Notes under the pieces: model-generated
Database searches by the model: none
What the model was told of the DNA's origin: nothing
What the model saw: the letters and a program-made list of their open reading frames with translations, nothing else
In this document: positions 11,656 to 28,139 of the stretch, piece by piece
Numbering within the stretch: the first letter of the stretch is position 1
Layout: every line of letters starts with the position of its first letter
Assembly: GCF_038397745.1 (NCBI RefSeq)
Contig: NZ_CP151636.1
Location: forward strand, 1,860,001-1,924,000
Reading direction: 5' to 3'
DNA length: 64,000 nucleotides
Source of the DNA: Microbacterium sp. LWH11-1.2
GTDB lineage: Bacteria > Actinomycetota > Actinomycetes > Actinomycetales > Microbacteriaceae
Program-made: the position numbers and the translations under genes

Positions 11656-11696
11656 GAAAGCAATTTCCGCGCACCTCTCGACAAAACAGAAATTTC
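11656..11696. promoter_or_regulatory. A/T-rich palindromes upstream of the sugar ABC operon (site A)
   Basis: GAAAGCAATTTC at 11656-11667 and GAAATTTC at 11689-11696 are islands of A/T in G+C-rich DNA, overlapping the promoter spacer. Similar motifs occur at the other transcription-unit starts of the cluster and may bind the RpiR protein encoded at 19460. Confidence 0.45.
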
Positions 11697-11705
11697 CGGT
11701 AGAGT
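11678..11705 (+). promoter_or_regulatory. Putative promoter of the sugar ABC operon
   Basis: TCGACA (11678-11683), 16-base spacer, TAGAGT (11700-11705). The GAAATTTC palindrome lies in the spacer. A 46-base leader then carries a GAGAGGAAA Shine-Dalgarno before the ATG at 11752. Confidence 0.5.
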
Positions 11706-11751
11706 CGCCACGTCGGTAATCATTTCTCACTTTTCGTGTCGAGAGGAAATC

Positions 11752-12786
11752 ATGCACGCACGAACTCGCAGCATCGTCGCTGCGGCAGCGGCCGGAGCGA
11801 TGGCGCTCGTCGGCCTCAGCGGCTGCGCCGCCTCCGCAGGATCCGACGAACCCCTCGTGGGGCTCGTCATCAAGACGCAGGACAACCCCTTCTACGTCAA
11901 GATGACGGAAGGGGCCAAGGACGAGGCGGAAGCCCTCGGACTCAATCTGCAGGTCGCCAGCGGCGACGGGCAGAGCGACGTCGACTCGCAGATCAAGGCC
12001 ATCGAGAACTTCACGGCGCAGGGCGCCAAGGCGATCCTCGTCACACCCGCCGGCGACGGGATCATCCCCGCCGTCAAGAAGGCGCAGGAGGCTGGCGTCG
12101 TCGTGTTCGCGATGGACTCGCCGCTCGGTGCGGACTCCGGCATCGACGGCACGTTCGCGACCGACAACTACCTCGCGGGCGTGCTCGTCGGCGAGTGGGC
12201 CAAGGCCGCACTCGGCGACACCGAGCCCCGGGTCGCCACGCTCGACCTCAGCACCGATCAGATCCCCGTCGACGTGGCCCGCAACCAGGGCTTCCTCGAG
12301 GGCTTCGGCATCGAGCTCGGCGATCCGTCGAAGATGTGGGACGAGACCGATCCGCGACTGATCGGGCACGAGGTGACCGACGCCAACGAAGCGGGCGGGC
12401 GCACCGGCATGGAGAAGCTCCTGCAGAAGGATCCGACCATCAACCTCGTCTACACGATCAACGAGCCCACGGCCGCAGGCGCCTATCAGGCCGTCGTCGC
12501 CGCGGGGCTCGAGGACCAGATCACGATCGTCTCGGTCGACGGCGGATGCCCCGGCGTGACCAACGTGCAGAAGGGCATCATCGCCGCGACCTCGATGCAG
12601 TTCCCGCTCGAGATGGCGAAGCAGGCCCTGCAGGCCGTCGAGGACTACCTGGCCGACGGCACCAAGCCGAAGAACAGCGACGGCCTCGACTTCACCAACA
12701 CCGGAGTCACGCTCGTGACCGACCAGCCGCAGGACGGCGTCGAATCCGAGGACACGACGTTCGGACTGGAGCAGTGCTGGGGCTGA
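11752..12786 (+). CDS. Sugar ABC transporter substrate-binding lipoprotein (RbsB/FrcB-like)
   Basis: 344 aa. Signal peptide with lipobox LSGC, Cys25. The mature protein is a type I periplasmic-binding fold: VGLVIKTQDNPFYVKM start, then the repeated NFTAQGAKAILVTPAGDG and SVDGGCPGV elements that line the sugar pocket. The family binds ribose, fructose, xylose, polyols or inositol. First gene of the operon and, by the hairpin after it, probably the most abundant product. Confidence 0.92.
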   Translation: MHARTRSIVAAAAAGAMALVGLSGCAASAGSDEPLVGLVIKTQDNPFYVKMTEGAKDEAEALGLNLQVASGDGQSDVDSQIKAIENFTAQGAKAILVTPAGDGIIPAVKKAQEAGVVVFAMDSPLGADSGIDGTFATDNYLAGVLVGEWAKAALGDTEPRVATLDLSTDQIPVDVARNQGFLEGFGIELGDPSKMWDETDPRLIGHEVTDANEAGGRTGMEKLLQKDPTINLVYTINEPTAAGAYQAVVAAGLEDQITIVSVDGGCPGVTNVQKGIIAATSMQFPLEMAKQALQAVEDYLADGTKPKNSDGLDFTNTGVTLVTDQPQDGVESEDTTFGLEQCWG

Positions 12787-12808
12787 GTCGCCCCGCTGCC
12801 TCCCTACC

Positions 12809-12844
12809 GGGTGAGGGTCGGCTCTTGCCGACCGGCCCTCACCC
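12809..12844 (+). other. Intergenic mRNA hairpin after the binding-protein gene
   Basis: GGGTGAGGGTCGGC pairs with GCCGACC and CCCTCACCC around loop TCTT, with a two-base bulge. No T-run follows, so a stabilising or attenuating hairpin that raises binding-protein mRNA over the permease is more likely than full termination. Confidence 0.6.
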
Positions 12845-12878
12845 TCCTCCTCCATACAACGACGTAGGAAAGCCCATC

Positions 12879-13952
12879 ATGAACCGAAGCGCCACCGATC
12901 TCCCGGATGACGAGCGACCGAGCACCGTCACCGCCGGATTCTCGATGGGACTGGTCGAGATCGACCAGGGAGCCCGTCTCAGCCCTCTCCAGTGGATCGA
13001 ACGACGGATGCTGTCGCGCCCGCTGATCGGTCCCGTCGCGGTGCTCATCATCGCGCTGATCGTCTTCTCGATCGTGTCGCCGAACTTCGGCACGCTCCAG
13101 AACTTCTCCCTGATCCTGCAGCAGGTGCAGGTGATCGCGATGCTCGGCATCGCGCAGACCCTCATCATCCTCACCGCAGGGATCGACCTCTCCGTCGCGG
13201 CGGTCATGCTGCTGTCGCAGGTCGCCATGGGTCGTTTCGCCGTCTCGGTCGGACTCCCTGTCGAGATCTCGCTCGTGCTCGGCATCGTCGTCGGCATCGC
13301 CTGCGGGGCGATCAACGGCTTCATCGTGACGAAGCTCAACATCCCGCCGTTCATCGCGACCCTCGGCACCCTGAGCATCTTCTACGCGCTGAACATCTTC
13401 ATCTCCGACGGGGAGAGCGTGCCGTACGCCGACGTGCCCCCGCTGTTCAACTGGCTCGGAACGGGCTTCCGCGTGTTCGGCACGACGTTCACCTTCGGCC
13501 AGGTGCTCACGATCCTCATGTTCATCCTGTTCGCCTACATCCTGCGCAACACCGCCTGGGGCACGCACATCTACGCCGTGGGCGACAACCTCGAGGCCGC
13601 GCGCCTCAGCGGCATCCGCGTCAACCGCGTGCTCATGTCGGTGTACGTGGTGGCCGGTCTCATCATCGGCGTCACCGCCTGGCTGCTCATCGGGCGCATC
13701 GGCTCGATCTCGCCCACCGCGGGCGCCGCCTACAACCTCGCGTCGATCACCGCGGTGGTCATCGGCGGCACGAGCCTCTTCGGCGGGCGCGGACGGATCA
13801 TGGGCACGCTGCTCGGATCCCTCATCGTCGGCGTCTTCTCCAGCGGACTGTCCCTCGCAGGATTCGACAGCCTCTGGCAGGAGTTCACCATCGGCCTCCT
13901 CATCATCGGCGCGGTCGCCGTCGACCAGCGCCTCCGCAAGATCGGACGTTGA
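12879..13952 (+). CDS. Sugar ABC transporter permease (RbsC/FrcC-like)
   Basis: 357 aa with eight to ten hydrophobic helices. It carries the RbsC-family stretches ILTAGIDLSVAAVM, VTKLNIPPFIATLGTL and AYNLASITAVVIGGTSLFGG. An unusually long, hydrophilic N-terminus of about 45 residues precedes the first helix. GTAGGAAAG precedes the ATG. Two bases before the ATPase gene. Confidence 0.92.
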   Translation: MNRSATDLPDDERPSTVTAGFSMGLVEIDQGARLSPLQWIERRMLSRPLIGPVAVLIIALIVFSIVSPNFGTLQNFSLILQQVQVIAMLGIAQTLIILTAGIDLSVAAVMLLSQVAMGRFAVSVGLPVEISLVLGIVVGIACGAINGFIVTKLNIPPFIATLGTLSIFYALNIFISDGESVPYADVPPLFNWLGTGFRVFGTTFTFGQVLTILMFILFAYILRNTAWGTHIYAVGDNLEAARLSGIRVNRVLMSVYVVAGLIIGVTAWLLIGRIGSISPTAGAAYNLASITAVVIGGTSLFGGRGRIMGTLLGSLIVGVFSSGLSLAGFDSLWQEFTIGLLIIGAVAVDQRLRKIGR

Positions 13953-13954
13953 CC

Positions 13955-14761
13955 ATGACCACCGGAACCCAGACCCCGCGCTCCACCGACCTGGTGCTCG
14001 AAGCGCGCGGCATCGTGAAGCGCTACGGACGCGTCGTCGCCCTCGACCAGACGGACTTCGAGATCCGTCAGGGGGAGGTGCTCGCCGTGATCGGCGACAA
14101 CGGCGCCGGCAAGTCCTCACTGATCCAATGCCTGTCGGGCGCCGTGCAGCCCGACGAGGGCGAGCTGCTGGTGAGCGGGGAGCCCACGACGCTGAGGACG
14201 CCGGTCGACGCTCGCCGGCTCGGAATCGAGACCGTCTTCCAGAGCCTCGCCGTCTCGCCGGCGCTCGACATCGCCAGCAACATCTTCCTCGGCCGGGAGC
14301 TGCGCCGCCCCGGCATCGCCGGCTCCGTGTTCCGCATGCTCGACAAGAAGCGGATGCGGGCGGAGTCGCTCGAGGTGATGTCGCAGCTCGGGCTGCAGAC
14401 GCTCCAGAACATCGGCCAGTCGGTCGAGACCCTCTCCGGCGGTCAGCGTCAGGGCGTCGCTGTGGCGCGTGCCGCGGCCTTCGGCTCGAAGGTCGTCATC
14501 CTCGACGAGCCGACCGCGGCCCTCGGCGTCAAGGAGTCGGGGCGCGTCGTCAAGCTCATCAAGGACATCAACGCCCGCGGCATCCCGGTCATCCTGATCA
14601 GCCACAACATGCCGCAGATCTTCGAGGTCGCCGACCGCATCCACATCCAGCGTCTCGGAAAGCGCATCGCGCTCGTCGAGACGTCGCAGATCGACATGGC
14701 GGGTGCCGTGGCGCTGATGGTCGGTGCGAAGACCCCCGAGCAGCTCGGGCTCGCCTCATGA
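13955..14761 (+). CDS. Sugar ABC transporter ATPase, single domain (FrcA-like)
   Basis: 268 aa with one ATPase domain, unlike the fused double RbsA. Walker A GDNGAGKSS, Q-loop VFQSLAVSP, signature LSGGQRQGVAVARA, Walker B VVILDEPTAAL, switch His in LISHN. The order and sequence closely follow my recollection of FrcA from the rhizobial fructose/mannose/ribose importer. Energises uptake with the preceding permease and binding protein. Confidence 0.93.
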   Translation: MTTGTQTPRSTDLVLEARGIVKRYGRVVALDQTDFEIRQGEVLAVIGDNGAGKSSLIQCLSGAVQPDEGELLVSGEPTTLRTPVDARRLGIETVFQSLAVSPALDIASNIFLGRELRRPGIAGSVFRMLDKKRMRAESLEVMSQLGLQTLQNIGQSVETLSGGQRQGVAVARAAAFGSKVVILDEPTAALGVKESGRVVKLIKDINARGIPVILISHNMPQIFEVADRIHIQRLGKRIALVETSQIDMAGAVALMVGAKTPEQLGLAS

Positions 14762-14808
14762 GCCCGCAGCAGGACCCCGCAGACAATCTTCAAGAAAGGA
14801 GCACCCGC

Positions 14809-15645
14809 ATGGTGCCCAACTACCTCCCCGCGCCCGGCACGGCCCTCGACGGCAAGGTGGCGCTCATCACCGGCGCCGCCTCCGGGATCGGCGAAGCGGT
14901 CGCCCGCATCTACGCCGCCAACGGATGTCGCGTCGCCCTGATCGACATCGACGCGGCCCGCCTCGAAGAGGTCGCCGCCGACATCGCGGAACGCGGCGGC
15001 GAGGTGCTCTCCCTCGTCGGGAACGTCGTGGAGGAGGACGAGGTGCGCGCGTTCTTCGCCGCGACCGTGGCCCGCTGGGGCCGGATCGACCTCGTCATCA
15101 ACAGCGCCGGCCGGGACTCCCTCGCACCGCCCGTCACCCAGGTGACGCTCGAGGAGTGGAACAAGACGATCGGGCCGAACCTCACCGGCGTCTTCCTCTG
15201 CTGCCGCGAGGCCTTCCTCGTCATGGATGGCCAGGAGACGGGCGGGCGCATCATCAACATGGGCTCCTCCTCGACCAAGGTCGCCTCGGGGCCGGGGCAC
15301 AGCCCGTACCGCGCCTCGAAGCACGGCATGCTCGGATTCTCGAAGAACATCCTGATCGAGGGCATGCACAAGAACATCGGCGTCACGGTCCTGAACCCCT
15401 CGCACGTGCGCACGCCGATGACCGAGATCATCGACAAGGGCCTGTACGACGGCGACCTGCCCGCCTACACCGACGGGTGGCTCGACGAGAAGGAGATCGA
15501 GGAGGGCCTCTCGGCCAGCTGCATCGATGTCGGGAACGTCGCGGAGGCCGCGCTCTACATCGGGACGCGCACGCCGGACGTGACCATCCCCACCTTCTCG
15601 CTGTACCCGACGCACAAGGTGCTGCGGTACGGCATGGAGGTCTAG
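14809..15645 (+). CDS. SDR family NAD(P)-dependent oxidoreductase
   Basis: 278 aa. Rossmann start VALITGAASGIGEAVA, NNAG variant NSAGRD, catalytic Ser in MGSSSTK and YRASKHG with Tyr and Lys. Probably oxidises a polyol or sugar alcohol hydroxyl. An in-frame ATG at 14758 overlaps the ATPase stop, but AAGAAAGGAG seven bases before 14809 favours the shorter form. It lacks the usual C-terminal DGG tail and ends in a longer FSLYPTHK tail. Confidence 0.9.
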   Translation: MVPNYLPAPGTALDGKVALITGAASGIGEAVARIYAANGCRVALIDIDAARLEEVAADIAERGGEVLSLVGNVVEEDEVRAFFAATVARWGRIDLVINSAGRDSLAPPVTQVTLEEWNKTIGPNLTGVFLCCREAFLVMDGQETGGRIINMGSSSTKVASGPGHSPYRASKHGMLGFSKNILIEGMHKNIGVTVLNPSHVRTPMTEIIDKGLYDGDLPAYTDGWLDEKEIEEGLSASCIDVGNVAEAALYIGTRTPDVTIPTFSLYPTHKVLRYGMEV

Positions 15646-15651
15646 GCGATC

Positions 15652-16755
15652 GTGAAGGCTGCAGTTCTGCGCGGCATCCGCGACATCGCCGTCCTCGATG
15701 TGCCCGTGCCGGAGCCCGTCGGCGTCGACTCGGTCCTCGTGCGGATCGGGGCGGTGGGCGTCTGCGGGTCCGACGTCCTCCGCTTCGGCATCGGCAAGGG
15801 ATACGGCTTCCCGCGGGTGCTCGGCCACGAGATGTCGGGCACCCTGGTCGAGGACTCCCCGTCGGGAGTGCTCAAGGCCGGCGATCGCGTCGCGATCTTC
15901 CCGTGCATCCCCGAGCCCTCGGACCCGATGAGCGAGATCGGCGAGTACGCGCTCGCCGATCGCTACGACTACTTCGGCTCCCGGCGCGACGGCGGACTCG
16001 AGGAGTATCTGCGGGTGCCCGAGCGCAACCTGATCCCACTGCGTCCCGGCACCTCTCTGATCGACGGTGCGATGGTGGAGCCGGCGGGGGTGGCCCTGCA
16101 TGCCGTCCGCAAGGCCGTGGTCCCCCCGAACGCGACGGCGCTCGTCATCGGCGCAGGGCCGATCGGCATCCTCGCCGCGCAGTGGCTGCGCATCCTCGGC
16201 GTCGTGCGCGTGCTCGTGGCGGATGTCGATGCGCGCAAGCGCGAGATCGCCGAGAGCCTCGGCTTCGAGACGCTCGACGCGTCGACGGCGCCGTCCGACG
16301 AGCTCGCGACGGCGGCGACCGCCGGCCGCGGCGTCGACATCGCCGTCGAGGCCTCCGGTATCTCCGTGACGTTCCTCCAGGCGATCCGCGCGGCGGCGCA
16401 CCGCGGACAGGTCGTCCTGCTCGGCGACCTCGCCGACGACGTCGCACTGCCGAAGGAGCTCGTCTCCCGCGTGCTGCGCCGGGAGCTCGTGCTGCGCGGA
16501 ACATGGAACGCCGTCATCACGCCCCGGGTGACGAACGACTGGGAGATGGTGGTGGCCTGCCTCGGCCGGTCGCTCATCGTCGACGGGCTCGTGAGCCACG
16601 TCGAGCGCATCGACGACGCGCAGGAGGTCTTCACCCGCCTCGCCGACCGCGGAGCATGGTCGAACAAGACGATCTTCGCGGTCTCCGACGAGGCCGTCGC
16701 CGAGGCGGACGCCGCACTCAGCGGATCCCTCTCCGCACGATTGGCGCGGCGATGA
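15652..16755 (+). CDS. Zinc-type (MDR) dehydrogenase, galactitol-1-phosphate dehydrogenase-like
   Basis: 367 aa, GTG start. MDR fold with catalytic zinc Cys in GVCGSDV, the GHEMSG His-Glu pair and Rossmann VIGAGPIG. YDYFGSRRDGG is close to the corresponding motif of GatD, which oxidises galactitol 1-phosphate to tagatose 6-phosphate. The four cysteines of the structural zinc lobe are missing; one FPC remains. The C-terminus has an extra Ala-rich tail of about 25 residues. Overlaps the next MDR by ATGA. Confidence 0.87.
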   Translation: MKAAVLRGIRDIAVLDVPVPEPVGVDSVLVRIGAVGVCGSDVLRFGIGKGYGFPRVLGHEMSGTLVEDSPSGVLKAGDRVAIFPCIPEPSDPMSEIGEYALADRYDYFGSRRDGGLEEYLRVPERNLIPLRPGTSLIDGAMVEPAGVALHAVRKAVVPPNATALVIGAGPIGILAAQWLRILGVVRVLVADVDARKREIAESLGFETLDASTAPSDELATAATAGRGVDIAVEASGISVTFLQAIRAAAHRGQVVLLGDLADDVALPKELVSRVLRRELVLRGTWNAVITPRVTNDWEMVVACLGRSLIVDGLVSHVERIDDAQEVFTRLADRGAWSNKTIFAVSDEAVAEADAALSGSLSARLARR

Positions 16756-17810
16756 AGGCCGCGGTGTTCCTGGGACCGGGACGCATCGAGGTCACGGACA
16801 TCCCGGTGCCCGAGGTGGGCCCCGGCGACGTGCTGGTCGAGGTGAGGGCGGCCAGCATCTGCGGCACCGACCTGCGCATCATGAAGCACGGGCACTTCCG
16901 CATCCCCGAGGGCACGCGCCGCGTGCTCGGGCACGAGCTCACGGGTCGGATCGTCGAGGCGGGGGCGGATGTCCGCGGCTTCGCGGTCGGCGACCGGGTC
17001 AGCGTCGCTCCGAACGTCGGCTGCGGCGTCTGCGCCATGTGCCGCCGCGGGCTGAACCAGCTGTGCCCGACGTACGACGCGTTCGGCATCACGCTGAACG
17101 GCGGGTTCGAGGAGTACATGCTCGTCCCGGCGGTGGCGATCGAACGCGGGAACCTCTTCCACGTCCCGGATGCCGTGGGCGACGAGATCGCCGCGATCAT
17201 GGAGCCGATGTCCTGCTGCCTCCACGGTCAGCGCAAGGTCGAGGTCTCACCCGAGGACTCGGTGCTCATCATCGGCGCGGGCCCCATCGGATGCTTCCAC
17301 ACCGTGCTCGCGAAGCGGGCCGGCGCCCGTCAGGTGATCGTGGCCAACACCCGACAGCCGCGGCTCGACATCGCCGGCCGGCTGGGAGCCGACCATCTCA
17401 TCAACGTGTCGGAACAGGACCTGCACGAGGAGGTCATGGCGCTGACCGGAGGCGAGGGCGTGGATGTCGTCATCACCTGCGTCTCCAAGCCCGACGTGAT
17501 CGCCTCGACGACCGACCTCGCCGGACGCCTCGGACGGATCAACGTGTTCTCCGGACTCGGCGATCAGGCCAGGCCCGCGATCGACGTGAACGCGCTCCAC
17601 TACCAGGAGCAGACCCTCACCGGGACGACGGGGTCGAGCGTGACCGACTACGGCGACGTCATCGGCATCATCGCGGAGAGCGATGTGGATCTCACGCCGA
17701 TCATCACCGCGCGATTCGCCCTCGACGACATCGAGGCGGCGATGGAGCACTCGCGCTCCGGAGTCGGCATGAAGTCGCTGATCACCTTCGACCGAGGAGA
17801 CGCGCGATGA
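16752..17810 (+). CDS. Zinc-type (MDR) dehydrogenase, sorbitol/threonine dehydrogenase-like
   Basis: 352 aa. SICGTDL catalytic zinc site, GHELTG, the full structural zinc lobe (GCGVCAMCRRGLNQLC), Rossmann IIGAGPIGCF. Belongs to the sorbitol/threonine dehydrogenase group of NAD-dependent polyol oxidisers. Unlike its neighbour, it keeps structural zinc. Overlaps ATGA at both ends, so strictly co-translated within the operon. Confidence 0.9.
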   Translation: MKAAVFLGPGRIEVTDIPVPEVGPGDVLVEVRAASICGTDLRIMKHGHFRIPEGTRRVLGHELTGRIVEAGADVRGFAVGDRVSVAPNVGCGVCAMCRRGLNQLCPTYDAFGITLNGGFEEYMLVPAVAIERGNLFHVPDAVGDEIAAIMEPMSCCLHGQRKVEVSPEDSVLIIGAGPIGCFHTVLAKRAGARQVIVANTRQPRLDIAGRLGADHLINVSEQDLHEEVMALTGGEGVDVVITCVSKPDVIASTTDLAGRLGRINVFSGLGDQARPAIDVNALHYQEQTLTGTTGSSVTDYGDVIGIIAESDVDLTPIITARFALDDIEAAMEHSRSGVGMKSLITFDRGDAR

Positions 17811-18751
17811 CCGCGGAGGTCTACACCCCCGACACGCTCGTGCCCGCGACGGAGCCGACGTTCGCCTTCGTCGGCGTCACGACCGGGGCGTCGTCGATCA
17901 TGGAGGTCTTCCCGCGGTGGGCCGCGCATCTCGGCATCCCGTCGCGCATCGTCGGCATCGATGTGCCGCTGGATGCCGACCCCGAGACGTACCGCCGCGT
18001 CGTCCGGTTCTTCACGGACGACCCGCTCTCGCTCGGCGCCCTGGTCACGACGCACAAGCTGAACCTGTTCCAGGCGAGCCGTGACCTGTTCGACGAGATC
18101 GGGGAGTCGGCCGCGCAGCTCGACGAGATCAGCAGCATCTCGAAGCGCGACGGGCGCCTCCTCGGCCACGCGATGGACGACGTCACGAGCGGTCTGGCGT
18201 ACGACGCCATCGTCGGCGAGGCCGACGAAGAGGTGCTCCTGCTCGGCGCCGGCGGGTCCTCGCTCGCCCTCACGCTGCACCTGCACCGGAAGCACCGGGC
18301 GGGCGGCGGGGCACCGCGTCGGATCGTCGTGACCAACCGGCGCCCCGGACGCATCGACGAGATGCGCGCGTTCCACGAGCGGATCGGGTTCGCGCTGCCG
18401 ATCGAGTACGTGGTGGCGCCGGAGCCGACGGTCAACGACGCCGCTCTCGCGACCATGGCCCCGCGTTCCACGGTCATCAACGCGACCGGACTGGGCAAGG
18501 ATCGGCCGGGCTCCCCTCTCACGGACGCGGCGCGGTTCCCCGACGGCGCCGTCGCCTGGGACTTCAACTACCGCGGCGACCTCGTGTTCCTCGACCAGGC
18601 GCGGTCGCAGGCCGATCGCGGCATCCGCGCCGTCGACGGGTGGTTCTACTTCCTCCACGGGTGGACGCGCGTGATCGCGCAGGTCTTCGACATCGCCATC
18701 CCGACATCCGGTCCCGCATTCGACGAGCTCTCCCGCATCGCGCGCGCCTAG
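17807..18751 (+). CDS. Shikimate-dehydrogenase-like oxidoreductase, copy 1
   Basis: 314 aa. The N-terminal half resembles the AroE substrate domain, with the catalytic Lys in VTTHKLN (usually TxPHK) and Asp in AMDDVTSG (usually NTDxxG). The second half is Rossmann (LLLGAGGSSLALT), then NATGLGKDRPGSPLTD in place of NATxxG. The Lys-Asp pair is kept while shikimate-contacting neighbours changed. An NAD(P)-dependent oxidation of a non-shikimate hydroxy or cyclic polyol substrate is inferred. A paralogue with the same changes lies at 26315-27241. Confidence 0.8.
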   Translation: MTAEVYTPDTLVPATEPTFAFVGVTTGASSIMEVFPRWAAHLGIPSRIVGIDVPLDADPETYRRVVRFFTDDPLSLGALVTTHKLNLFQASRDLFDEIGESAAQLDEISSISKRDGRLLGHAMDDVTSGLAYDAIVGEADEEVLLLGAGGSSLALTLHLHRKHRAGGGAPRRIVVTNRRPGRIDEMRAFHERIGFALPIEYVVAPEPTVNDAALATMAPRSTVINATGLGKDRPGSPLTDAARFPDGAVAWDFNYRGDLVFLDQARSQADRGIRAVDGWFYFLHGWTRVIAQVFDIAIPTSGPAFDELSRIARA

Positions 18752-18806
18752 CGGCGCCACGCCCGAAGAAGACACAGACAAGAAACGACACAGAGAAGGA
18801 CCACGC

Positions 18807-19400
18807 ATGAGCACCGCATCCCTCACTCCCACCACCCGATCCGTCGTCACCCGGTTCGACCTGACCACCGGACTCGCCGACGGCACCCCGTCGCTGCGTC
18901 GCCCGCTGTCGGCGATGGCCGGCATGTACGCGGACGCGGCGGCGTTCGAGGCCGCCGTCGCCGCGGACGACGTGCTCAGCTACGAGTTCTACGACATGGG
19001 CGTTCCCGCGCTCGAGACCGAGATCGCCTACGGGACGAGCATCACCTACCCCGGTCGCGTCGGCGACGAGTACTTCATGACCAAGGGGCACTTCCACACC
19101 CGCCTCGAGGCCGCGGAGATCTATCTGTGCCTCTCGGGCGAGGGCCTCATGCTGATGGAGAGTCCCGAGGGTGACGTGCAGGTCGAGGAGTTCCGGGCCG
19201 GTCGTTCGGTGTACGTGCCCGGCCGCTACGCGCATCGCAGCATCAACACCTCGGCCACCGAGCCGCTGATCACCTTCTTCGCGTTCCCCGGGGACGCGGG
19301 GCACGACTACGGCACGATCGAGACGAAGGGCTTCCGCAAGATCGTCGTCGATCGCGACGGGGTGCCCACGCTGCAGGACAACCCGCGCTGGCAGAGCTGA
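18807..19400 (+). CDS. Cupin-type glucose-6-phosphate isomerase-like protein
   Basis: 197 aa. Matches the archaeal-type phosphoglucose isomerase family (GPI cupin). The metal motif is TKGHFHTRLEAAEIYLCLSG with His95, His97 and Glu104 (or Glu101), then His143 in GRYAHRSIN. The enzyme binds Fe or another divalent metal and interconverts aldose and ketose phosphates. An isolated copy in a bacterial catabolic cluster suggests a dedicated isomerisation of the pathway sugar. GAGAAGGA precedes the start. Confidence 0.87.
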   Translation: MSTASLTPTTRSVVTRFDLTTGLADGTPSLRRPLSAMAGMYADAAAFEAAVAADDVLSYEFYDMGVPALETEIAYGTSITYPGRVGDEYFMTKGHFHTRLEAAEIYLCLSGEGLMLMESPEGDVQVEEFRAGRSVYVPGRYAHRSINTSATEPLITFFAFPGDAGHDYGTIETKGFRKIVVDRDGVPTLQDNPRWQS

Positions 19401-19447
19401 CGCCCGGAGCCCCGGAGCGCTGCCATGGGAACGGCCGGACGACCGTC

Positions 19448-19453
19448 TAGACT
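19448..19453 (+). promoter_or_regulatory. -10 box of a leaderless promoter for the RpiR gene
   Basis: TAGACT ends six bases before the GTG at 19460, so the regulator has its own leaderless promoter and need not depend on the operon it lies in. Confidence 0.55.
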
Positions 19454-20362: not shown

Positions 20363-20369
20363 CACCGCC

Positions 20370-20394
20370 CGCCCCGTTCCGGGATCGTGGGGCG
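20370..20394. terminator. Possible bidirectional terminator between rpiR and the kinase gene
   Basis: CGCCCC at 20370-20375 and GGGGCG at 20389-20394 form a short stem with a CCGGGATC-containing loop in the 33-base gap of convergent genes. Weak: short stem, no T-run. Confidence 0.35.
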
Positions 20395-20395
20395 C

Positions 20396-21895: not shown

Positions 21896-21899
21896 CCTC

Positions 21900-21909
21900 G
21901 AACCGGTTC
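21900..21909. promoter_or_regulatory. GAACCGGTTC palindrome just upstream of the kinase start
   Basis: A perfect 10-bp dyad (12 bp counting flanks G/C) four bases from the kinase ATG. LacI- or IclR-type operators have this shape. It may also interfere with ribosome binding, as no well-spaced Shine-Dalgarno is seen. Confidence 0.35.
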
Positions 21910-21957
21910 CACTTCGTCGTGTGTTGACCGGGCATCATGCCCGTGACTAGAGTGACC

Positions 21958-21999
21958 GAAGTTTATTCTGAAAGCAAGTGAATCAGAGAAATATTTACC
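21958..21999. promoter_or_regulatory. A/T-rich palindromes in the kinase/MDR divergent promoter (site B)
   Basis: GAAGTTTATTC at 21958-21968 is nearly identical to GAAATTTATTC of site C. AAATATTT at 21989-21996 is a perfect 8-bp dyad. This is the only A/T-rich stretch in the 117-bp gap and lies 14 bases before the MDR start. Confidence 0.48.
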
Positions 22000-22012
22000 G
22001 AATGGAGCATCC

Positions 22013-23116
22013 ATGCGCGCCGCCGTCCTGTTCAGCCCCCATGAGCCGCTGCGGATCGAGGATGTCGAGACGCCTGCCGTCCTCGAGCCGCACGAGGTGC
22101 GCGTCGCGACGGCCGCCGTCGGGCTCTGTCACTCCGACCTCCATGTGATCGACGGTCGCGTCGCGCGGCCCATGCCGATCGTGCTCGGCCACGAGGCCTC
22201 CGGCATCGTCAGCGAGGTGGGGTCCGCCGTGGCGGACGTGGCTGTCGGAGATCACGTCATCGCGTGCTTCGTCGTGTTCTGCGGCGCGTGCCGCATGTGC
22301 CGTGCGGGGAAGCCGGCCATGTGCCAGGACCGGGAGGCGACGATGCGCGGTCGCGGTGCGGAGCCGCGGCTGTCGCAGCACGGGGCCGAGGTGCAGCAGT
22401 GGACCAACATCGCCGGATTCGCGGAGGAGATGGTCCTGCACCGGAACGCGGTGACGGTCATCGACCGCCGGATGCCGCTCGACCTCGCGGCGATGCTCGG
22501 GTGCGCCGTCGCGACGGGGGTCGGCTCGGCGCGGAAGGTCGCCGGAGTCTCCGAGGGCGACCACGTGGTCGTGATCGGCGCCGGCGGTGTCGGGCTGAAC
22601 GTCTGCCAGGGCGCGGCGCTCGCCGGGGCGGCGACCGTGATCGCGATCGACCGCAGCGATGAGCGCCTGCGTCTCGCCCAGGAGCGGTTCGGCGCGACCC
22701 ACGGGATCAACACCTCGGTGGTGGCGGATGCCGCGGCCGCTGTGCGCGCACTGACGGACGGCGGTGCCGATCACGTGTTCGAGGCGGTCGGCGTTCCGGG
22801 CCTGATCGGGCTCGCCCTCGACGCGACGGCCCGCGGCGGGTCGGTCTGGGCGGTCGGCGTGTTCGGCGACGAGGCCGAGATCGCCTTCCCGGCCGGGCAT
22901 CTGCACGCGGGCAAGGGCGTGCAGGGCGTGCGCGCGGGATCCCTCGAGCCGCAGAAGGATCTGCCGCGGCTCGTCGAGGAGTACCTCGCCGGGCGGCTCG
23001 AGCTCGACGCGCTCGCCGGTCGGCGGATCCCGCTCGACGAGATCAACGACGGGATCGCCGACCTCGAGGCCGGGGTCGGCGCCCGCACGCTGGTGGTGTT
23101 TCAGCCGATCGAGTAG
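22013..23116 (+). CDS. Zinc-type (MDR) alcohol dehydrogenase
   Basis: 367 aa. Class III/mycothiol-like MDR: catalytic Cys in GLCHSDLHV, GHEASG, structural lobe CGACRMCRAGKPAMC, Rossmann VIGAGGVGLNVCQG. NAD-dependent oxidation of an alcohol or reduction of an aldehyde is expected. Third MDR of the cluster and the most distant from the other two. Its 3' end overlaps the convergent SDR gene by 16 bases. Confidence 0.9.
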   Translation: MRAAVLFSPHEPLRIEDVETPAVLEPHEVRVATAAVGLCHSDLHVIDGRVARPMPIVLGHEASGIVSEVGSAVADVAVGDHVIACFVVFCGACRMCRAGKPAMCQDREATMRGRGAEPRLSQHGAEVQQWTNIAGFAEEMVLHRNAVTVIDRRMPLDLAAMLGCAVATGVGSARKVAGVSEGDHVVVIGAGGVGLNVCQGAALAGAATVIAIDRSDERLRLAQERFGATHGINTSVVADAAAAVRALTDGGADHVFEAVGVPGLIGLALDATARGGSVWAVGVFGDEAEIAFPAGHLHAGKGVQGVRAGSLEPQKDLPRLVEEYLAGRLELDALAGRRIPLDEINDGIADLEAGVGARTLVVFQPIE

Positions 23117-23808
23117 CCGCCGTCGACGTTGAGGACCGTGCCGGTGATGTAGGCGGCGTCGCGGGAGACGAGGAAGCCGATCGCGCGCGCCACGTCGTCG
23201 GCCTCGCCCCAGCGCGCGAGCGGGATGCGCGCGCTGATGCGCTCGAAGCGCTCGGCGTCGTCGCGTGCGCGACGCGACATCGGCGTCGCGATCCAGCCCG
23301 GAGCCACGGCGTTCACGCGGATGCCCTCCGGAGCGTAAGCCACAGCCTGCGAGCGGGTGAGCGCGACGACGGCACCCTTCGACGCCGCGTAGGCGGGGGA
23401 GTTCGCCGAGCCGAAGTAGCTCCACATCGAGGCGAAGTTCACGATCGATCCGCCGGCATCCGCGAGGCGTGAGCGGAGCAGCTCGCCGACCGCGAGCACA
23501 CCCGTGACGTTCACTCCGAGCACCGCGTCGAACTGGTCGGGCTGCCACTCGTCGTCGCGCAGTACGGCCGCGCAGGTCACCAGGGCGCTGACCGGCCCGA
23601 CGTCGGCGAGCGACTCCTCGAGCGCCGCGCCGTCGCTGACGTCGCAGCGGCGGAACGTGATGCCGTCGGGGAGGTCTGCGTCGGCGTCGAGGCCCAGCGC
23701 CACGATGCGCCAGCCGCGCTCCACCAACAGGTCTGCGACTGCCCGGCCGATGCCGGTGCCTCCTCCGGTGATCACGGCGAGCGGTTCGGTGAGGGGCGTG
23801 CTGGACAT
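23101..23808 (-). CDS. SDR family oxidoreductase
   Basis: 235 aa from the ATG at 23808 with AGGAGA. VITGGGTGIGRAVA cofactor site, CAAV in place of NNAG, Ser in NFASMWS, YAASKGA, and C-terminal ITGTVLNVDGGYS. Typical classical SDR acting on a sugar, polyol or keto acid. An upstream in-frame start would run through the shared promoter and is rejected. Divergent from the transketolase genes. Confidence 0.9.
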   Translation of the reverse strand: MSSTPLTEPLAVITGGGTGIGRAVADLLVERGWRIVALGLDADADLPDGITFRRCDVSDGAALEESLADVGPVSALVTCAAVLRDDEWQPDQFDAVLGVNVTGVLAVGELLRSRLADAGGSIVNFASMWSYFGSANSPAYAASKGAVVALTRSQAVAYAPEGIRVNAVAPGWIATPMSRRARDDAERFERISARIPLARWGEADDVARAIGFLVSRDAAYITGTVLNVDGGYSIG

Positions 23809-23826
23809 ATCTTCTCCTGACGTATC

Positions 23827-23866
23827 GAAATTTATTCGACCGTAGCTTGACACCGGGGGAAATTTC
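23827..23866. promoter_or_regulatory. A/T-rich palindromes in the SDR/transketolase divergent promoter (site C)
   Basis: GAAATTTATTC at 23827-23837, flanked by TC and GA, and GAAATTTC at 23859-23866 directly before the transketolase ATG. Both motifs recur at sites A, B or D. The gap is only 59 bp, so one bound regulator could control both directions. Confidence 0.5.
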
Positions 23867-23867
23867 A

Positions 23868-24752
23868 ATGAGCATGTCTCCCGTGCCCTCATCGACGACG
23901 CTCACACCCGACCGACCCACCGCCGACGCCGCTCTCCTGGCCGATCGAGCCGCCTTCGTGCGGACCGAGACGATCCGCCTCATCGAGATCGCGAAGGTCG
24001 GACACTACAGCTCTGTCTTCTCGGCCGCCGAGATCTTCGCCGCGCTCTACTACGGCGTGATGCGCACGGATGCCGCTCGCCCCGACTGGCCCGACCGCGA
24101 CCGATTCCTGATGGGCAAGGGGCATGCCGCCGTCGGTCTCTTCCCGATCCTGGCCGACCTCGGGTACTTCCCGACCGAGGTCCTCGACGGCTACACGCGC
24201 CTCGGCAGCCCGCTGGGCGACCACCCGGACATGACCAAGGTGCCCGGGATCGACTTCAGCTCGGGGTCGATCGGCCACGCGCTGTCGAACGGGCTCGGCA
24301 TGGCGCTCGGCGGCCGGATGGCAGGGCGCGACTTCAGCGTCTTCGTCATGCTCGGCGACGGCGAGATGCAGGAGGGCCAGGTCTGGGAGGCCGCGCTCGG
24401 CGCCGCCCACCACCGGCTCGGAAAGCTCGTCGCCATCGTCGACCGCAACGGCTTCCAGCTCGACGGCAGCGTCGATGACGTGATCGGCATCGAACCGCTC
24501 GCCGACAAGTGGCGCGCGTTCGGCTGGAACGTCCACGAGGTCGACGGCCACGACGCGGCCGCCGTGCGCGATCTGCTGCTCGCGCTGGCGGAGCGCCCCG
24601 ACGGTGCAGCGCCCAGCTGCGTCATCGCGCAGACGAAGAAGGGAAAGGGAGTGTCGTACATGGAGGAGGAGCCCGGATGGCACCTCGGATACCTCATGCC
24701 CGCCGATGCCGAGAGAGCCGTCGCCGAGATCCTGGAAGGGGGTCGGGCATGA
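23868..24752 (+). CDS. Transketolase N-terminal (TPP-binding) subunit
   Basis: 294 aa from the ATG at 23868 (GGGGGA seven bases upstream). Contains the thiamine diphosphate motif GDGEMQEGQVWEAAL to DRNGFQ, and catalytic-loop GKGHAAVG. Only the first half of a transketolase; the second half is the next gene, overlapping by ATGA. Split transketolases often serve dedicated ketose-phosphate pathways, such as apulose-4-phosphate transketolase AptAB, rather than the pentose phosphate pathway. Confidence 0.93.
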   Translation: MSMSPVPSSTTLTPDRPTADAALLADRAAFVRTETIRLIEIAKVGHYSSVFSAAEIFAALYYGVMRTDAARPDWPDRDRFLMGKGHAAVGLFPILADLGYFPTEVLDGYTRLGSPLGDHPDMTKVPGIDFSSGSIGHALSNGLGMALGGRMAGRDFSVFVMLGDGEMQEGQVWEAALGAAHHRLGKLVAIVDRNGFQLDGSVDDVIGIEPLADKWRAFGWNVHEVDGHDAAAVRDLLLALAERPDGAAPSCVIAQTKKGKGVSYMEEEPGWHLGYLMPADAERAVAEILEGGRA

Positions 24753-25729
24753 GCGCGCCGCAGTTGGCCCAGGGCTCCTGGCAGTACCGGAGCATCAACG
24801 CGCAGAACCCGGGCCTCGACCACCTCTCCGACGGTCTGCTCGACCTCGTCGAGGCGGGAGTGCCCGTCGTCGCCGGCACCGCCGACCTGCAGTACTCGAA
24901 CGGGCTCGTCAAGTTCGCGCAGCGGCATCCGGATCGCTTCGTCCAGTTCGGGATCTCCGAGCAGAACATGGTCTCGGCCGCGGCGGGGCTCGCCACGACC
25001 GGCGCCGTGCCGTTCGTGGCGACCTTCGCGTCGTTCCTCGCGCTGCTGTGCTGCGAGCAGATCCGCATGGACGTCGCCTACACCCAGCTCCCCGTGCGCC
25101 TCATCGGGCATCACACCGGCATCGCGCTCGGCTTCTACGGAACCAGCCATCACGCCACCGAGGACATCTCGGCGCTGCGCGCCATCGCCGGGCTCACGAT
25201 CGTCTCGCCCGCCGACGGACCGCAGCTCCGCGCGGCGATCAGGGCGTCGGCGGACTGGCCGGAGCCGATCTACTTCCGCACCAGCCGCGGCCGCGATCCG
25301 CAGGTGTACGGCGATGACGTGGTCTTCGAGTTCGGGAAGGGCATCGAGCACGCGACCGGGACCGACCTCACGATCATCGCGTGCGGCACGCAGGTGCACC
25401 CGGCGCTCGCCGCGGCCGAGGAACTCCGGGCCGAGGGGCTCTCGGTGGGAGTCATCGACATGCCGACGATCAAGCCGCTCGACGACGAGCTCGTCCGCGC
25501 CGCCGCCGGGCGCAGCGGGGTCGTGCTCACCGTGGAGGAGCACAACGTCCTCGGGGGCCTGGGTGCCGCGGTCGCCGAGGTCATGGCGGAGACGCCCTCA
25601 CGTGCCCGGCTCGTACGCCACGGCATCCACGATGAGTACAGTCTCATCGCGCCGCCGACGCATCTCTACGCCCACTACCGGCTGGACGCGCCCGGCATCG
25701 CCGCCGTCGCGCGGGAGGCTCTCGCATGA
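24749..25729 (+). CDS. Transketolase C-terminal (PYR) subunit
   Basis: 326 aa. Pyrimidine-binding domain with the conserved Glu in FGISEQNMVSAAAGLA, then HHTGIALGFYGTSHHATED and a C-terminal domain (TVEEHNVLGGLGAAVAE). Forms the alpha2beta2 enzyme with the upstream subunit and transfers a two-carbon ketol group. Overlaps the HAD gene by ATGA. Confidence 0.93.
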   Translation: MSAPQLAQGSWQYRSINAQNPGLDHLSDGLLDLVEAGVPVVAGTADLQYSNGLVKFAQRHPDRFVQFGISEQNMVSAAAGLATTGAVPFVATFASFLALLCCEQIRMDVAYTQLPVRLIGHHTGIALGFYGTSHHATEDISALRAIAGLTIVSPADGPQLRAAIRASADWPEPIYFRTSRGRDPQVYGDDVVFEFGKGIEHATGTDLTIIACGTQVHPALAAAEELRAEGLSVGVIDMPTIKPLDDELVRAAAGRSGVVLTVEEHNVLGGLGAAVAEVMAETPSRARLVRHGIHDEYSLIAPPTHLYAHYRLDAPGIAAVAREALA

Positions 25730-26256
25730 CCGCCGCGACCCTCCCGCACGCGCACTGGCATGCCGCCACCGAGGTGCGCCCCGGCCCGGCGGTCGTCTTC
25801 GATCTCGACGGTGTGCTCGCGGATGCGATGCACCGGCAGCACTTCCTGCACCGTGAGACGCCCGACTGGGAGTCGTTCTATCGCGATGTCCACGCGGATG
25901 CCGTGATCGAGGCGGGGAGCGCCCTGCTGTCGTGCATGCGCGACGATGTGACGATCATCATCCTCACCGCCCGGGTCGACGAGGTCGCGATCGTGACCCG
26001 GGAGTGGCTCGCCGCGCAGGGGCTCCGCTTCGACCTGCTCGTGTGCCGGCCGCCGCAGGAGGACGACGACGCCACCGTCGCCGTTGACTACAAGCGGATC
26101 GAGATCGGGCGGATGCTCGCGTGGGGCATCGAGCCGATCCTCGGCATCGACGACAACCGCAAGATCATCGACATGTACGGGGAGTTCGGCATCCCGAGCC
26201 TGTACTTCCCGAGCGGCTACTACGACAGCACCTCGCGCTACGACGGCGGCGTGTAG
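25726..26256 (+). CDS. HAD-like phosphatase
   Basis: 176 aa. Motif I FDLDGVLADA (Asp nucleophile and acid), motif II Thr in IIILTARVDE, Lys in VDYKRIEI, motif III GIDDNRKIIDMYG. It resembles the phosphatase domain of polynucleotide-kinase/phosphatase-like HAD proteins and lacks a large cap. Co-translated with transketolase, so dephosphorylating a pathway sugar phosphate is plausible. Confidence 0.83.
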   Translation: MTAATLPHAHWHAATEVRPGPAVVFDLDGVLADAMHRQHFLHRETPDWESFYRDVHADAVIEAGSALLSCMRDDVTIIILTARVDEVAIVTREWLAAQGLRFDLLVCRPPQEDDDATVAVDYKRIEIGRMLAWGIEPILGIDDNRKIIDMYGEFGIPSLYFPSGYYDSTSRYDGGV

Positions 26257-26280
26257 GCGCACGGGAGCACACGAGGCCCG

Positions 26281-26314
26281 GAGGAGGGGCGGCGGGATCC
26301 CGCCGCCCCTCCTC
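26281..26314. terminator. Perfect 34-bp palindrome, bidirectional terminator
   Basis: Two complementary 17-base arms, starting GAGGAGGGGCGGCGGGA and ending CCGCCGCCCCTCCTC. It lies between the convergent HAD gene (ends 26256) and the shikimate-dehydrogenase-like gene, whose stop follows directly at 26315-26317. TTAT follows on the plus strand. Confidence 0.8.
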
Positions 26315-27241
26315 TTATGCGATCGTGGAGCGGGCGATCTGCGAGAGGCGATCGAAGAGCTCGCCGCGGGCGGGGATGTCGATCCCGTGCACCTCCGCGA
26401 CCACCGAGGTCCAGGAGTGGACGAAGTAGTCCCAGCCGTCCTCGACGATGAGTTCGCGCTCCGTCCGTCGGGCTTCGGCCTGGGTGAGGAACAGCCTCGG
26501 TCCGCGGTAGTTCATGTCCCAGATGATCGAACCGAGCGGGTAGTCGACGTCGTCGGTGAGCGGAGAGCCCGGTCGATCCTTGCCCATGCCCGTCGCATTG
26601 ACGAGGACGGATGCCGGGGGCAGGGCGGCGACGACGGCATCCGCCTCGCTGGGGTCGGCCGTGACAAGCGGGACGACGGGGATGGGGAAGCCGATCTGCT
26701 CGTGCAGCGCGCGCATCTCCTCGAGCCGCTGCGGGGAGCGCGCGGTGACGTGGATGCGCGACGGGACCGGCAGGCCTTCGGCGGCCGCCCGGTGCAGGCC
26801 CAGCGTCGTCGCGATCGACGCGCCTCCCGCGCCGAGGAGTAGGAGCTCTCCGCCGCGGTCCCAGTGGCCGTCGGGGATCAGCGCCTCGAGGGCGCGTCGG
26901 CTCGTGCGGTCGTCGAGGGCCGCGCCATGAAGCTCGCCGTCGCGCATCGCCAGGCAGCTCACCTCGTGCAGCAGGCGGGCCGAGTCGTCGAGGTCCGCGA
27001 ACAGATCGCGGGCCGCCGCGAGCACGTTGAGCTTGTGCGTCGTGATGAGTCCGCCGATCGAACCGGGCTCCGCGATCACGCGCTCGACGGCGGCCCGATA
27101 CTCGGCGGCAGGAGCATCGAGGGGGAAGTCGACGCCGACGAGCGTGGATCGGATGCCGAGCTCGTCCATCCACAGCGGATAAATCCGCTGCATCGCGGAC
27201 TCGGCCGTGGAGACGCCGAAGAACCAGAAGGTGGAGGTCAT
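26315..27241 (-). CDS. Shikimate-dehydrogenase-like oxidoreductase, copy 2
   Basis: 308 aa. Same architecture as the protein at 17807-18751: catalytic Lys in ITTHKLN, Asp in ALDDRTS, Rossmann LLLGAGGASIATT, NATGMGKDRPGSPLTDD and IIWDMNYRGPRLFL. The shared departures from AroE show that the two copies form one subfamily. Second gene of a minus-strand pair with the lactonase, overlapping it by ATGA. Probably a different step or the reverse stereochemistry on the same ring or chain. Confidence 0.82.
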   Translation of the reverse strand: MTSTFWFFGVSTAESAMQRIYPLWMDELGIRSTLVGVDFPLDAPAAEYRAAVERVIAEPGSIGGLITTHKLNVLAAARDLFADLDDSARLLHEVSCLAMRDGELHGAALDDRTSRRALEALIPDGHWDRGGELLLLGAGGASIATTLGLHRAAAEGLPVPSRIHVTARSPQRLEEMRALHEQIGFPIPVVPLVTADPSEADAVVAALPPASVLVNATGMGKDRPGSPLTDDVDYPLGSIIWDMNYRGPRLFLTQAEARRTERELIVEDGWDYFVHSWTSVVAEVHGIDIPARGELFDRLSQIARSTIA

Positions 27242-28089
27242 GCTGACGCTCCCACCGCGATGAACGGCACGCCGAGTTCGGGGATGCGCCAGGCGATGTC
27301 ATCCACGTCGGACAGCCGCTGGGCGAGGTCGACGGGGTCGGCGGAGTTGAACTCGAACAGACCCCAGTGGTGGCAGACCAGGGAGGGGATGCCGGCGTCG
27401 CGGCAGAGCGCCACCGCCTCCTCCAGCGTGAAGTTCCCCGGAACGCCGTGGTCGCGGCGATGCGGATCGCGGCCGTTCACGGGCAGGAGGGCGACGTCGA
27501 CGTCCAGGGCGCGGACGATGTCGGCCTGGCCGCGGTACGGGGCGCAGTCGCCGGAGTGGTAGATCCGCACGGAGCCGACCTCGATGACGTAGCCGAGGAA
27601 CAGGTTCTGCGCGTGGTCGTCGGCCGTGAGCTCCTCGTGCGCGGCGGGGACGGCGGTCACCGTGATGCCGCCGCGGCTGCGGAACGACTCACCGGCGTCG
27701 AGACCCAGCAGCCGCTGTGCCGGGATGCCGCGCGCGACGCCCTTCACCGCTTCGGAGCGGGGGACGACGAAGAGCGGGTCGCTCGCGCTCTGCAGGTAGG
27801 GGATGGACCCGAGATCCATGTGGTCCGTGTGCCCGTGCGTGCACAGCACCAGGGAGAGTCCGGTGACGTCTGAGGGGTTCACGGGGCTCGGATGCATCCG
27901 GCTGTGCGGGAAGATCCGGCCGCGGTACTTGTCGGCGAGCACGTCGCTCAGATACGGATCGATGAACAGGAGCTCGTCGCCGGAGCGGATCGCGAACCCC
28001 GCCTGGCCGAGCCACCAGAGGACGACGGCATCCTCCTGGTCGGCGGGTGCAGGGAATCGGGGGTCCAGTGGGAATCGGGCGGGCGTCAT
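27238..28089 (-). CDS. UlaG-like metallo-beta-lactamase-fold hydrolase
   Basis: 283 aa. WLGQAGFAI start, metal motif CTHGHTDHMD, His in AHEEL, YHSGDCAPY and a final HHWGLF. Matches the UlaG group (L-ascorbate-6-phosphate lactonase) and related MBL-fold hydrolases, but is shorter than UlaG. A lactonase step, opening a sugar lactone made by one of the dehydrogenases, is inferred. GAAGGAGC precedes the ATG. Confidence 0.85.
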   Translation of the reverse strand: MTPARFPLDPRFPAPADQEDAVVLWWLGQAGFAIRSGDELLFIDPYLSDVLADKYRGRIFPHSRMHPSPVNPSDVTGLSLVLCTHGHTDHMDLGSIPYLQSASDPLFVVPRSEAVKGVARGIPAQRLLGLDAGESFRSRGGITVTAVPAAHEELTADDHAQNLFLGYVIEVGSVRIYHSGDCAPYRGQADIVRALDVDVALLPVNGRDPHRRDHGVPGNFTLEEAVALCRDAGIPSLVCHHWGLFEFNSADPVDLAQRLSDVDDIAWRIPELGVPFIAVGASA

Positions 28090-28101
28090 CGCAGCTCCTT
28101 C

Positions 28102-28139
28102 GAAAGAATTTCTCTAACGATAGCTAGCCCAGAAATATC
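28102..28139. promoter_or_regulatory. A/T-rich palindromes upstream of the lactonase gene (site D)
   Basis: GAAAGAATTTC at 28102-28112 and GAAATATC at 28132-28139 lie 13 to 50 bases before the minus-strand ATG. They resemble GAAAGCAATTTC of site A and mark the cluster's right edge. Confidence 0.45.

Follow-up and report, generated by a model that had tools for sequence, protein, structure and literature searches.

A cluster of 17 genes was characterized in a window of 64,000 nucleotides from Microbacterium sp. LWH11-1.2 (positions 1,860,001–1,924,000 of a 4.22-Mb single-contig genome; positions below are those of the window unless a locus is named). The genes, which are named by family in Table 1, encode an ABC importer, several dehydrogenases, a kinase, a cupin, a split transketolase, a lactonase-like hydrolase and an RpiR-type regulator. 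All 17 reading frames were full length within 11752–28089 and matched their families in Pfam and NCBIfam profiles, in agreement with the inventory drawn up in an earlier note on this DNA. They lie in six strand blocks, SBP-PERM-ATP-SDR1-MDR1-MDR2-SDH1-CUP-RPIR (+), GLPK (−), MDR3 (+), SDR2 (−), TKN-TKC-HAD (+) and ULAG-SDH2 (−), and therefore do not constitute a single operon. The earlier note had described the genes as full length and packed with ATGA overlaps. The former was correct, but overlaps were found at only five of the 11 same-strand junctions (MDR1/MDR2, MDR2/SDH1, TKN/TKC, TKC/HAD and ULAG/SDH2); a possible sixth, ATPase/SDR1, requires SDR1 to start at 14758.

Table 1. Genes of the cluster and candidate operator sites, with the evidence for each.
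Feature	Position	Strand	Evidence or remark
Candidate operator GAAATTTC, SBP promoter	11689..11696		weaker partner 11660-11667
SBP, sugar-binding lipoprotein (Peripla_BP_4)	11752..12786	+	PF13407 E 5.6e-44
PERM, permease (BPD_transp_2)	12879..13952	+	PF02653 E 2.2e-38
ATP, single-domain ABC ATPase, FrcA-like architecture	13955..14761	+	NCBIfam YtfR/RbsA-type models match one half only
SDR1, short-chain dehydrogenase, alternative start 14758	14809..15645	+	PF00106; 69-87% identity in actinobacterial clusters
MDR1, Zn-type dehydrogenase	15652..16755	+	nearest NCBIfam model galactitol-1-phosphate 5-dehydrogenase, 180.7 bits, cut-off 550
MDR2, Zn-type dehydrogenase	16752..17810	+	nearest L-threonine 3-dehydrogenase and IolM models, all below cut-off
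SDH1, AroE-fold dehydrogenase	17807..18751	+	Lys84 and Asp124 invariant in 48/48 aligned family members
CUP, cupin phosphoglucose-isomerase family	18807..19400	+	PF06560 E 2.1e-32; alignment to solved archaeal enzymes
RPIR, RpiR-type regulator with SIS domain	19460..20362	+	PF01418, PF01380; nearest HexR model 146 bits, cut-off 296
GLPK, glycerol-kinase-family FGGY kinase, E. coli Phe270 position Ser	20396..21895	-	TIGR01311 665 bits, cut-off 590; alignment
Candidate operator, GLPK/MDR3 divergent promoter	21988..21995		possible partner 21958-21965 at background score
MDR3, NDMA/mycothiol-type alcohol dehydrogenase	22013..23116	+	TIGR03989 280 bits, cut-off 440
SDR2, short-chain dehydrogenase	23101..23808	-	Pfam and NCBIfam profiles
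Candidate operator GAAATTTC, SDR2/TKN divergent promoter	23859..23866		partner 23827-23834
TKN, N-terminal half, split transketolase	23868..24752	+	PF00456; nearest solved chain 6yak, E 3.3e-73
TKC, C-terminal half, split transketolase	24749..25729	+	PF02779, PF02780
HAD, small phosphatase-like protein	25726..26256	+	PF25109 E 1.7e-7
SDH2, second AroE-like protein	26315..27241	-	47% identity to SDH1
ULAG, UlaG-like metallo-beta-lactamase-fold hydrolase	27238..28089	-	metal site complete
Candidate operator 5' of ULAG-SDH2	28105..28112		partner 28132-28139; relative L169 has GAAATTTC upstream of ULAG

The strand blocks share a candidate operator. The sequence GAAATTTC was present twice in the window, as compared with 0.01 copies expected, and three times in the genome: at the SBP promoter, at the SDR2/TKN promoter and in one other place (G000:C1:4164055-4164062). 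An operator matrix was built from 17 sites in ten relatives, with the window left out, and scored over the 64 kb. The seven top sites all fell in the four promoter regions of the cluster, which cover 541 bases. Shuffled palindromic matrices (n = 300) placed a mean of 1.6 of seven sites in these regions, a mean above zero because promoters are AT-rich, and none of the 300 reached seven. In three promoters a second site lay 27–32 bases away, while the fourth pair was at background level.

Scanning of 21 sources located GAAATTTC in intergenic DNA of Microbacteriaceae before SBP (L039, L040, L041, L043, L044 and L045) and between SDR2 and TKN (L040, L043, L044 and L115). It lies between GLPK and MDR3 in Agromyces (L042) and 236–297 bases before SBP in Streptomyces-type loci (L054, L055, L056 and L094). 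Additional stretches beyond these sources had sites in front of TKN (L167, L169) and ULAG (L169) and in the ULAG–SBP interval (L170). Two of the 21, L134 and L085, carried it outside the expected places, and six of the 21 (L047, L048, L050, L051, L053 and L129) did not contain it. We infer that RPIR would bind the candidate sites. As part of the best explanation that we can offer, we read the 17 genes as a single putative regulon under RpiR-type control that serves an ABC-imported rare sugar or polyol. The single carbohydrate or polyol catabolic set proposed in the earlier note is supported.

A widely conserved core consists of an FGGY kinase, a shikimate-dehydrogenase-like protein (SDH), a cupin and a lactonase-like hydrolase, together with a 2-hydroxyacid dehydrogenase (2HADH) and a 2-keto-3-deoxy-6-phosphogluconate (KDPG) aldolase (EDA). 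The core set was seen in Actinobacteria, rhizobia, Planctomycetes, Spirochaetes and one Lokiarchaeote contig. A scan of genome contigs with SDH1 yielded 70 loci, from actinobacteria to Planctomycetes, Spirochaetes and Verrucomicrobia, three of them (L081, L106, L108) without a complete SDH frame. Thirty-six loci had flanks of 6 kb or more on each side; there, FGGY kinase was a neighbour in 27, cupin in 27, 2HADH in 25, EDA in 20 and a hydrolase of metallo-beta-lactamase fold (MBL) in 18, and all five partners were present in 15 (raw counts without a chance control, hydrolases of the phosphotriesterase family, PTE, being left out). The contig labelled Lokiarchaeota, from a metagenome-assembled genome (MAG; L084), encodes SDH, CUP, 2HADH, MBL and EDA. 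Fifteen plasmid records were matched and six of them, rhizobial and other, examined; all six carry cupin, SDH, 2HADH, MBL, RpiR and FGGY kinase, and five carry EDA. In five of these six the cupin is preceded by importer and kinase genes on the other strand, while L129 is arranged otherwise. Outside Actinobacteria the kinase, SDH, cupin, hydrolase, 2HADH and EDA occur in varying completeness, and no transketolase-query match was listed at those loci.

The hydrolase comes from one or the other of two unrelated families. Among 94 sources with any core gene, of 95 examined, 39 had MBL, 18 had PTE, none had both and 37 had neither (L109 and L045 are one genome, and L039 and the window nearly so). 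The PTE family includes lactonases, to judge from publication titles. Of the 98 genomes in a sample taken around the window's own, the 20 with a strong SDH match were also the 20 with a strong cupin match (Fisher p = 3e-21, shared descent ignored), the two lying a few kilobases apart by their listed coordinates. This count excludes weak SDH matches (E 1e-7 to 1e-3: G018, G045, G062, G063, G081, G092 and a second one in G043) and weak cupin matches (G051, G080, G088). The MBL protein was above background in only three of the 98. Co-conservation in relatives, on which the earlier note had staked its reading, was therefore observed.

Two further features of SDH clusters were recorded. A DeoC-type aldolase was encoded at L110:7513-8202, L098 and L129:15639-16385; the L110 copy had no Pfam DeoC match and was 47% identical to the L129 copy, which passes PF01791. 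A protein of ~440 amino acids without a Pfam or NCBIfam match was conserved in Planctomycete-type clusters (L069:12530-13849, L080, L087, L100, L106).

The top matches of the two SDH proteins of the window to shikimate dehydrogenase models in NCBIfam (E 4.6e-9 and 4.9e-11) were far below cut-off, with 35.8 bits for SDH1 and 42.4 bits for SDH2 against curated AroE cut-offs of 200 and 295, respectively. Structural comparison gave the family an AroE fold, and its invariant Lys84 and Asp124 are presumably the AroE catalytic pair. AroE, YdiB and 5-ketofructose reductase lay within ~2 Z units of one another, so that no one SDH subfamily was singled out. SDH1 was 76–80% identical to its Herbiconiux and Agromyces counterparts as compared with 70% in a genome of its own genus (window 17807-18751 vs L040-L045), which suggests intergeneric transfer.

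CUP scored 112 bits against PF06560 (cut-off 20.7) and, on alignment, keeps the HxH, Glu and His positions, which we take to be the cupin metal ligands, as well as the AGHDYG motif of archaeal phosphoglucose isomerases. GLPK exceeds the glycerol kinase cut-off, yet has Ser at the position of E. coli GlpK Phe270, presumably an acceptor-site residue. The motif was resolved in 16 of 18 GLPK-type orthologues and read GGS or GAS in every one, and the other, housekeeping glycerol kinase of the genome retains Phe. This suggests that GLPK has an acceptor larger than glycerol. The structure nearest to that of ULAG was UlaG, which acts as a lactonase on phospho-sugars, while ULAG scored 36 bits against the curated UlaG model PRK11709 (cut-off 306). 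MDR2 reached 218 bits with the IolM model (cut-off 450), below its L-threonine dehydrogenase scores.

Two members of the core, EDA and 2HADH, are missing from the window. EDA sits between ATP and SDR1 in Herbiconiux, Agromyces, Microbacterium L045 and the unclassified genome of L041/L169, and 2HADH lies between CUP and RPIR in the same relatives where sequence covers the region; the window has 47 and 59 bases, respectively, at these positions. The Herbiconiux MAG (L043) EDA passes TIGR01182 (232 vs 156 bits), and its 2HADH comes closest to phosphoglycerate dehydrogenase without reaching the cut-off (215 vs 454 bits). Microbacterium sp. TPD7012, the closest named relative in our searches, keeps all 17 genes at 98–100% identity and has neither EDA nor 2HADH at these positions, while G005 keeps 16 of the 17 at 90–99% and is without EDA, 2HADH and SDH1. 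Since the three losers are close relatives, these represent one loss event rather than three. The 17 genes had been taken as a complete pathway; this is not borne out, as the set of the relatives adds two genes, which could not be seen in the earlier reading because both were lost in the window lineage.

The closest homologues elsewhere in the window's genome were 40% (EDA) and 39% (2HADH) identical. This 2HADH homologue is part of a second cluster, at 1.655 Mb (L126:8330-13295; G000:C1:1,654,000-1,660,000) that encodes a PTE-family protein, SDH, 2HADH, FGGY kinase and cupin, beside an ABC importer, a LacI regulator and a TIM-barrel gene. This second cluster is also present in G005 (L116), and its PTE gene, at 98%, in TPD7012, while no PTE match above 49% identity was found in the genomes of L040-L045, which kept EDA. 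All three genomes thus have such a PTE-type cluster, or at least the PTE gene belonging to it, which fits sharing rather than decay. PTE-type second clusters are common in related genomes (L116-L125). As to the surroundings of the 17 genes, TPD7012 has ~8.8 kb of extra sequence between RPIR and GLPK (L168:1222-9987) that is absent from the window and in which a single 38% 2HADH-like match was seen; in the window, genes for a DUF222 protein (28302-29858) and a Haem_oxygenas_2 protein (30152-31405) lie just outside the cluster.

Many of the actinobacterial clusters, though not all, include the transketolase. The chain nearest to TKN, 6yak, is itself the N-terminal component of a split-chain transketolase. 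Of the seven Microbacteriaceae genomes from which L039-L045 come, six have TKN at 78–99% conservation, adjoining GLPK and MDR3 in each. In Streptomyces iranensis and S. endocoffeicus TKN-TKC (64–65%) lies directly upstream of SBP. L045 has only a 43–45% homologue several kilobases away, the genomes of L046 and L050 have no TKN match above 34%, and that of L053 has one at 40%. Membership of the transketolase in the set, as assumed in the earlier note, therefore holds in part. We had considered that TKN might be limited to Herbiconiux and the window lineage; this was rejected when longer stretches extended it to L042 and L054-L055.

We propose that the cluster is a 17-gene RpiR-type regulon with an undescribed Entner–Doudoroff-like phosphorylated branch as its core, and put the probability of this somewhat below one half (about 0.46). 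The reactions, their order, the pairing of regulator with operator and the class of substrate are all predictions from sequence. The MDR and SDR enzymes would yield a ketose, or act on a polyol phosphate, and the GlpK-derived kinase would phosphorylate. The cupin would convert ketose phosphate to aldose phosphate, the AroE-fold SDH aldose phosphate to phospho-lactone, and the UlaG-like hydrolase phospho-lactone to phospho-aldonate; PTE-family proteins include phospho-lactonases. In relatives, 2HADH and a KDPG-type aldolase would complete the route. In the window lineage the missing step may be supplied in trans by the second cluster, or bypassed via the split transketolase, which would move two-carbon units from ketose phosphate or released hydroxypyruvate. 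A phosphorylated route is favoured because of the cupin residues, the kinase and the EDA and 2HADH of the relatives, which are nearest to phosphate-handling enzymes. The substrate is most likely a hexulose or hexitol, because the cupin keeps phosphoglucose-isomerase residues. The earlier note had envisaged stepwise oxidation, lactone opening and ketol transfer. Oxidation followed by lactone opening is in keeping with this scheme, and ketol transfer gains from a transketolase that lies in the same candidate regulon and near the cluster in most Microbacteriaceae and two Streptomyces, so that the proposal is partly supported.

Several observations weigh against this proposal. Unless supplied with a 3-deoxy acid, a KDPG aldolase would release hydroxypyruvate, and the core yielded no dehydratase: Pfam and NCBIfam profiles gave none among the 17 genes, and none was seen among the neighbours scanned at other loci, an Edd-type dehydratase in Marinovum (L131) being found only beside a TRAP operon. 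5-Ketofructose reductase, of the AroE family, has a sugar ketone as its target rather than an anomeric carbon. Six of the 36 well-covered SDH loci have none of the five partners, some SDH clusters add a DeoC-type aldolase, GAAATTTC is missing from five actinobacterial loci that carry the core, and RPIR scores below the HexR cut-off. G005 lost SDH1, EDA and 2HADH yet kept SDH2-ULAG, which the simple scheme leaves unexplained. The dehydratase gap could be explained in two ways. A 3-deoxyhexulose substrate (e.g. 3-deoxyfructose) would give pyruvate and glyceraldehyde-3-phosphate with no step missing; alternatively, EDA would release hydroxypyruvate, which the dedicated split transketolase of actinobacterial clusters would take as donor. 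Transketolase can use hydroxypyruvate. The hydroxypyruvate ending suits the transketolase, whereas with a 3-deoxy acid it would not be needed. That kinase, cupin, AroE-fold dehydrogenase as a sugar-phosphate 1-dehydrogenase, MBL or PTE lactonase, 2HADH and EDA form an undescribed Entner–Doudoroff-type pathway with either of these endings is a tentative and rather doubtful suggestion.

Other explanations would place the SDH differently. It might be an epimerising reductase of keto-sugars or their phosphates, paired with an MDR that oxidizes one carbon which SDH then re-reduces with the other stereochemistry, the cupin leading on to an ordinary hexose phosphate and the hydrolase acting elsewhere. 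The clusters are rich in MDR and SDR genes, and 5-ketofructose reductase was the best PDB sequence match of SDH1 (E 2e-5), an enzyme of that AroE family reportedly reducing 5-keto-D-fructose; in the same paper, one Clostridium SDH-like protein was inactive on 5-ketofructose. We consider this explanation unlikely, as it does not account for the association of SDH with 2HADH, KDPG aldolase and a lactonase-type hydrolase, the last drawn from one or other of two unrelated families. Quite unlikely, too, is a transketolase-centred route of the apulose-4-phosphate or sulfo-transketolase (sulfo-TK) kind, in which the split transketolase would cleave a kinase-made ketose phosphate and SDH, cupin and lactonase would be a side branch. 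The shared candidate operator, the conservation beside GLPK or SBP and the retention of transketolase in G005, where EDA, 2HADH and SDH1 were lost, are in its favour, but the transketolase is distant or missing in L045, L046, L050 and L053, and the sulfo-TK marker families sulfoquinovosidase, SqvB (PF16161) and SqwI (PF02502), so named in the accessible part of a published description, were not found among the 17 genes.

The window copy could also be a decaying remnant whose working pathway has gone, as the short intervals between neighbours at the EDA and 2HADH positions and the further loss of SDH1 in G005 would allow. All 17 genes are intact with their candidate operators, however, TPD7012 and G005 keep theirs at high identity, and all three genomes have the PTE-type second cluster or its PTE gene, so that decay appears very unlikely. 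A cyclitol route as in Thermotoga, in which an IolM-like MDR2 would give a diketo ring, ULAG would hydrolyse it and the open acid would be processed, is highly improbable. Its attractions are the MDR2 score with the IolM model and a Gfo/Idh protein adjoining MDR in Planctomycete-type clusters. That score is far under the cut-off and below those for L-threonine dehydrogenase, no Gfo/Idh-type gene was found by Pfam profiles among the 17, and the phosphoglucose-isomerase-type cupin would have no role. The cyclitol substrate of the earlier note thus survives only as a minor rival.

Among known systems, the classical Entner–Doudoroff pathway with HexR (Zwf, Pgl, Edd, Eda) has the same order as that proposed here for the regulon, from sugar phosphate through lactone and phospho-acid to a KDPG-type aldolase, and HexR, which senses KDPG, is the nearest model to RPIR. 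It differs in that here an AroE-fold protein stands for Zwf and an MBL or PTE hydrolase for Pgl, with a 2HADH, no dehydratase and the cluster's own kinase and isomerase; the window cluster has neither Edd nor KDPG aldolase. L-Ascorbate utilization shares the hydrolase fold and metal site of UlaG with ULAG, whereas no phosphotransferase system (PTS) or UlaD/E/F gene is present among the 17, and ULAG is far from the UlaG cut-off. The apulose (AptAB) and sulfo-TK (SqwGH) systems likewise place a transketolase, reportedly of two-subunit form, beside sugar genes, but here it accompanies an SDH/lactonase/cupin core. The sulfo-TK pathway was rejected on its markers sulfoquinovosidase, SqvB, SqvD and SqwI: the 17 genes gave no match to a glycosidase, to a fucose-isomerase-type protein, to PF16161 or to PF02502. 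5-Ketofructose reductase was 18% identical to the SDH over the structural alignment. The Thermotoga myo-inositol route (IolG, IolM, IolN, IolO) also has an IolM-like MDR clustered with a hydrolase, and was rejected on the IolM score of MDR2. The Luteolibacter L-glucose/L-galactose route comprises dehydrogenations, C-4 epimerization, reduction, dehydration, and 2-keto-3-deoxygluconate (KDG) kinase and aldolase; it was rejected because no cupin or lactonase step is named in the accessible part of its description (PMC12632266). Further comparison facts came from PMC5931981, PMC3750489, PMC7954740 and PMC9594981.

No paper describing the gene set was found in the open-licence literature, subscription papers lying outside that search, and the absence of a published gene-for-gene match claimed earlier is to this extent confirmed. 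We conclude that the gene set is real, coherent and undescribed in the open literature searched. The window cluster is most plausibly a lineage-specific version of a widespread, putatively Entner–Doudoroff-like core with an actinobacterial transketolase branch. Many proteins now labelled ‘shikimate dehydrogenase’ (at least 7857 matches among 7994 scored candidates, the best 120 of them listed, which may include true shikimate dehydrogenases) probably lie within or close to a family that accompanies sugar genes and to which we found no reaction assigned. If the proposal is true, six gene families would be assigned at once, soil, marine and plant-associated bacteria would have a new sugar-degrading route, and a fold of aromatic biosynthesis would be at work in sugar breakdown.

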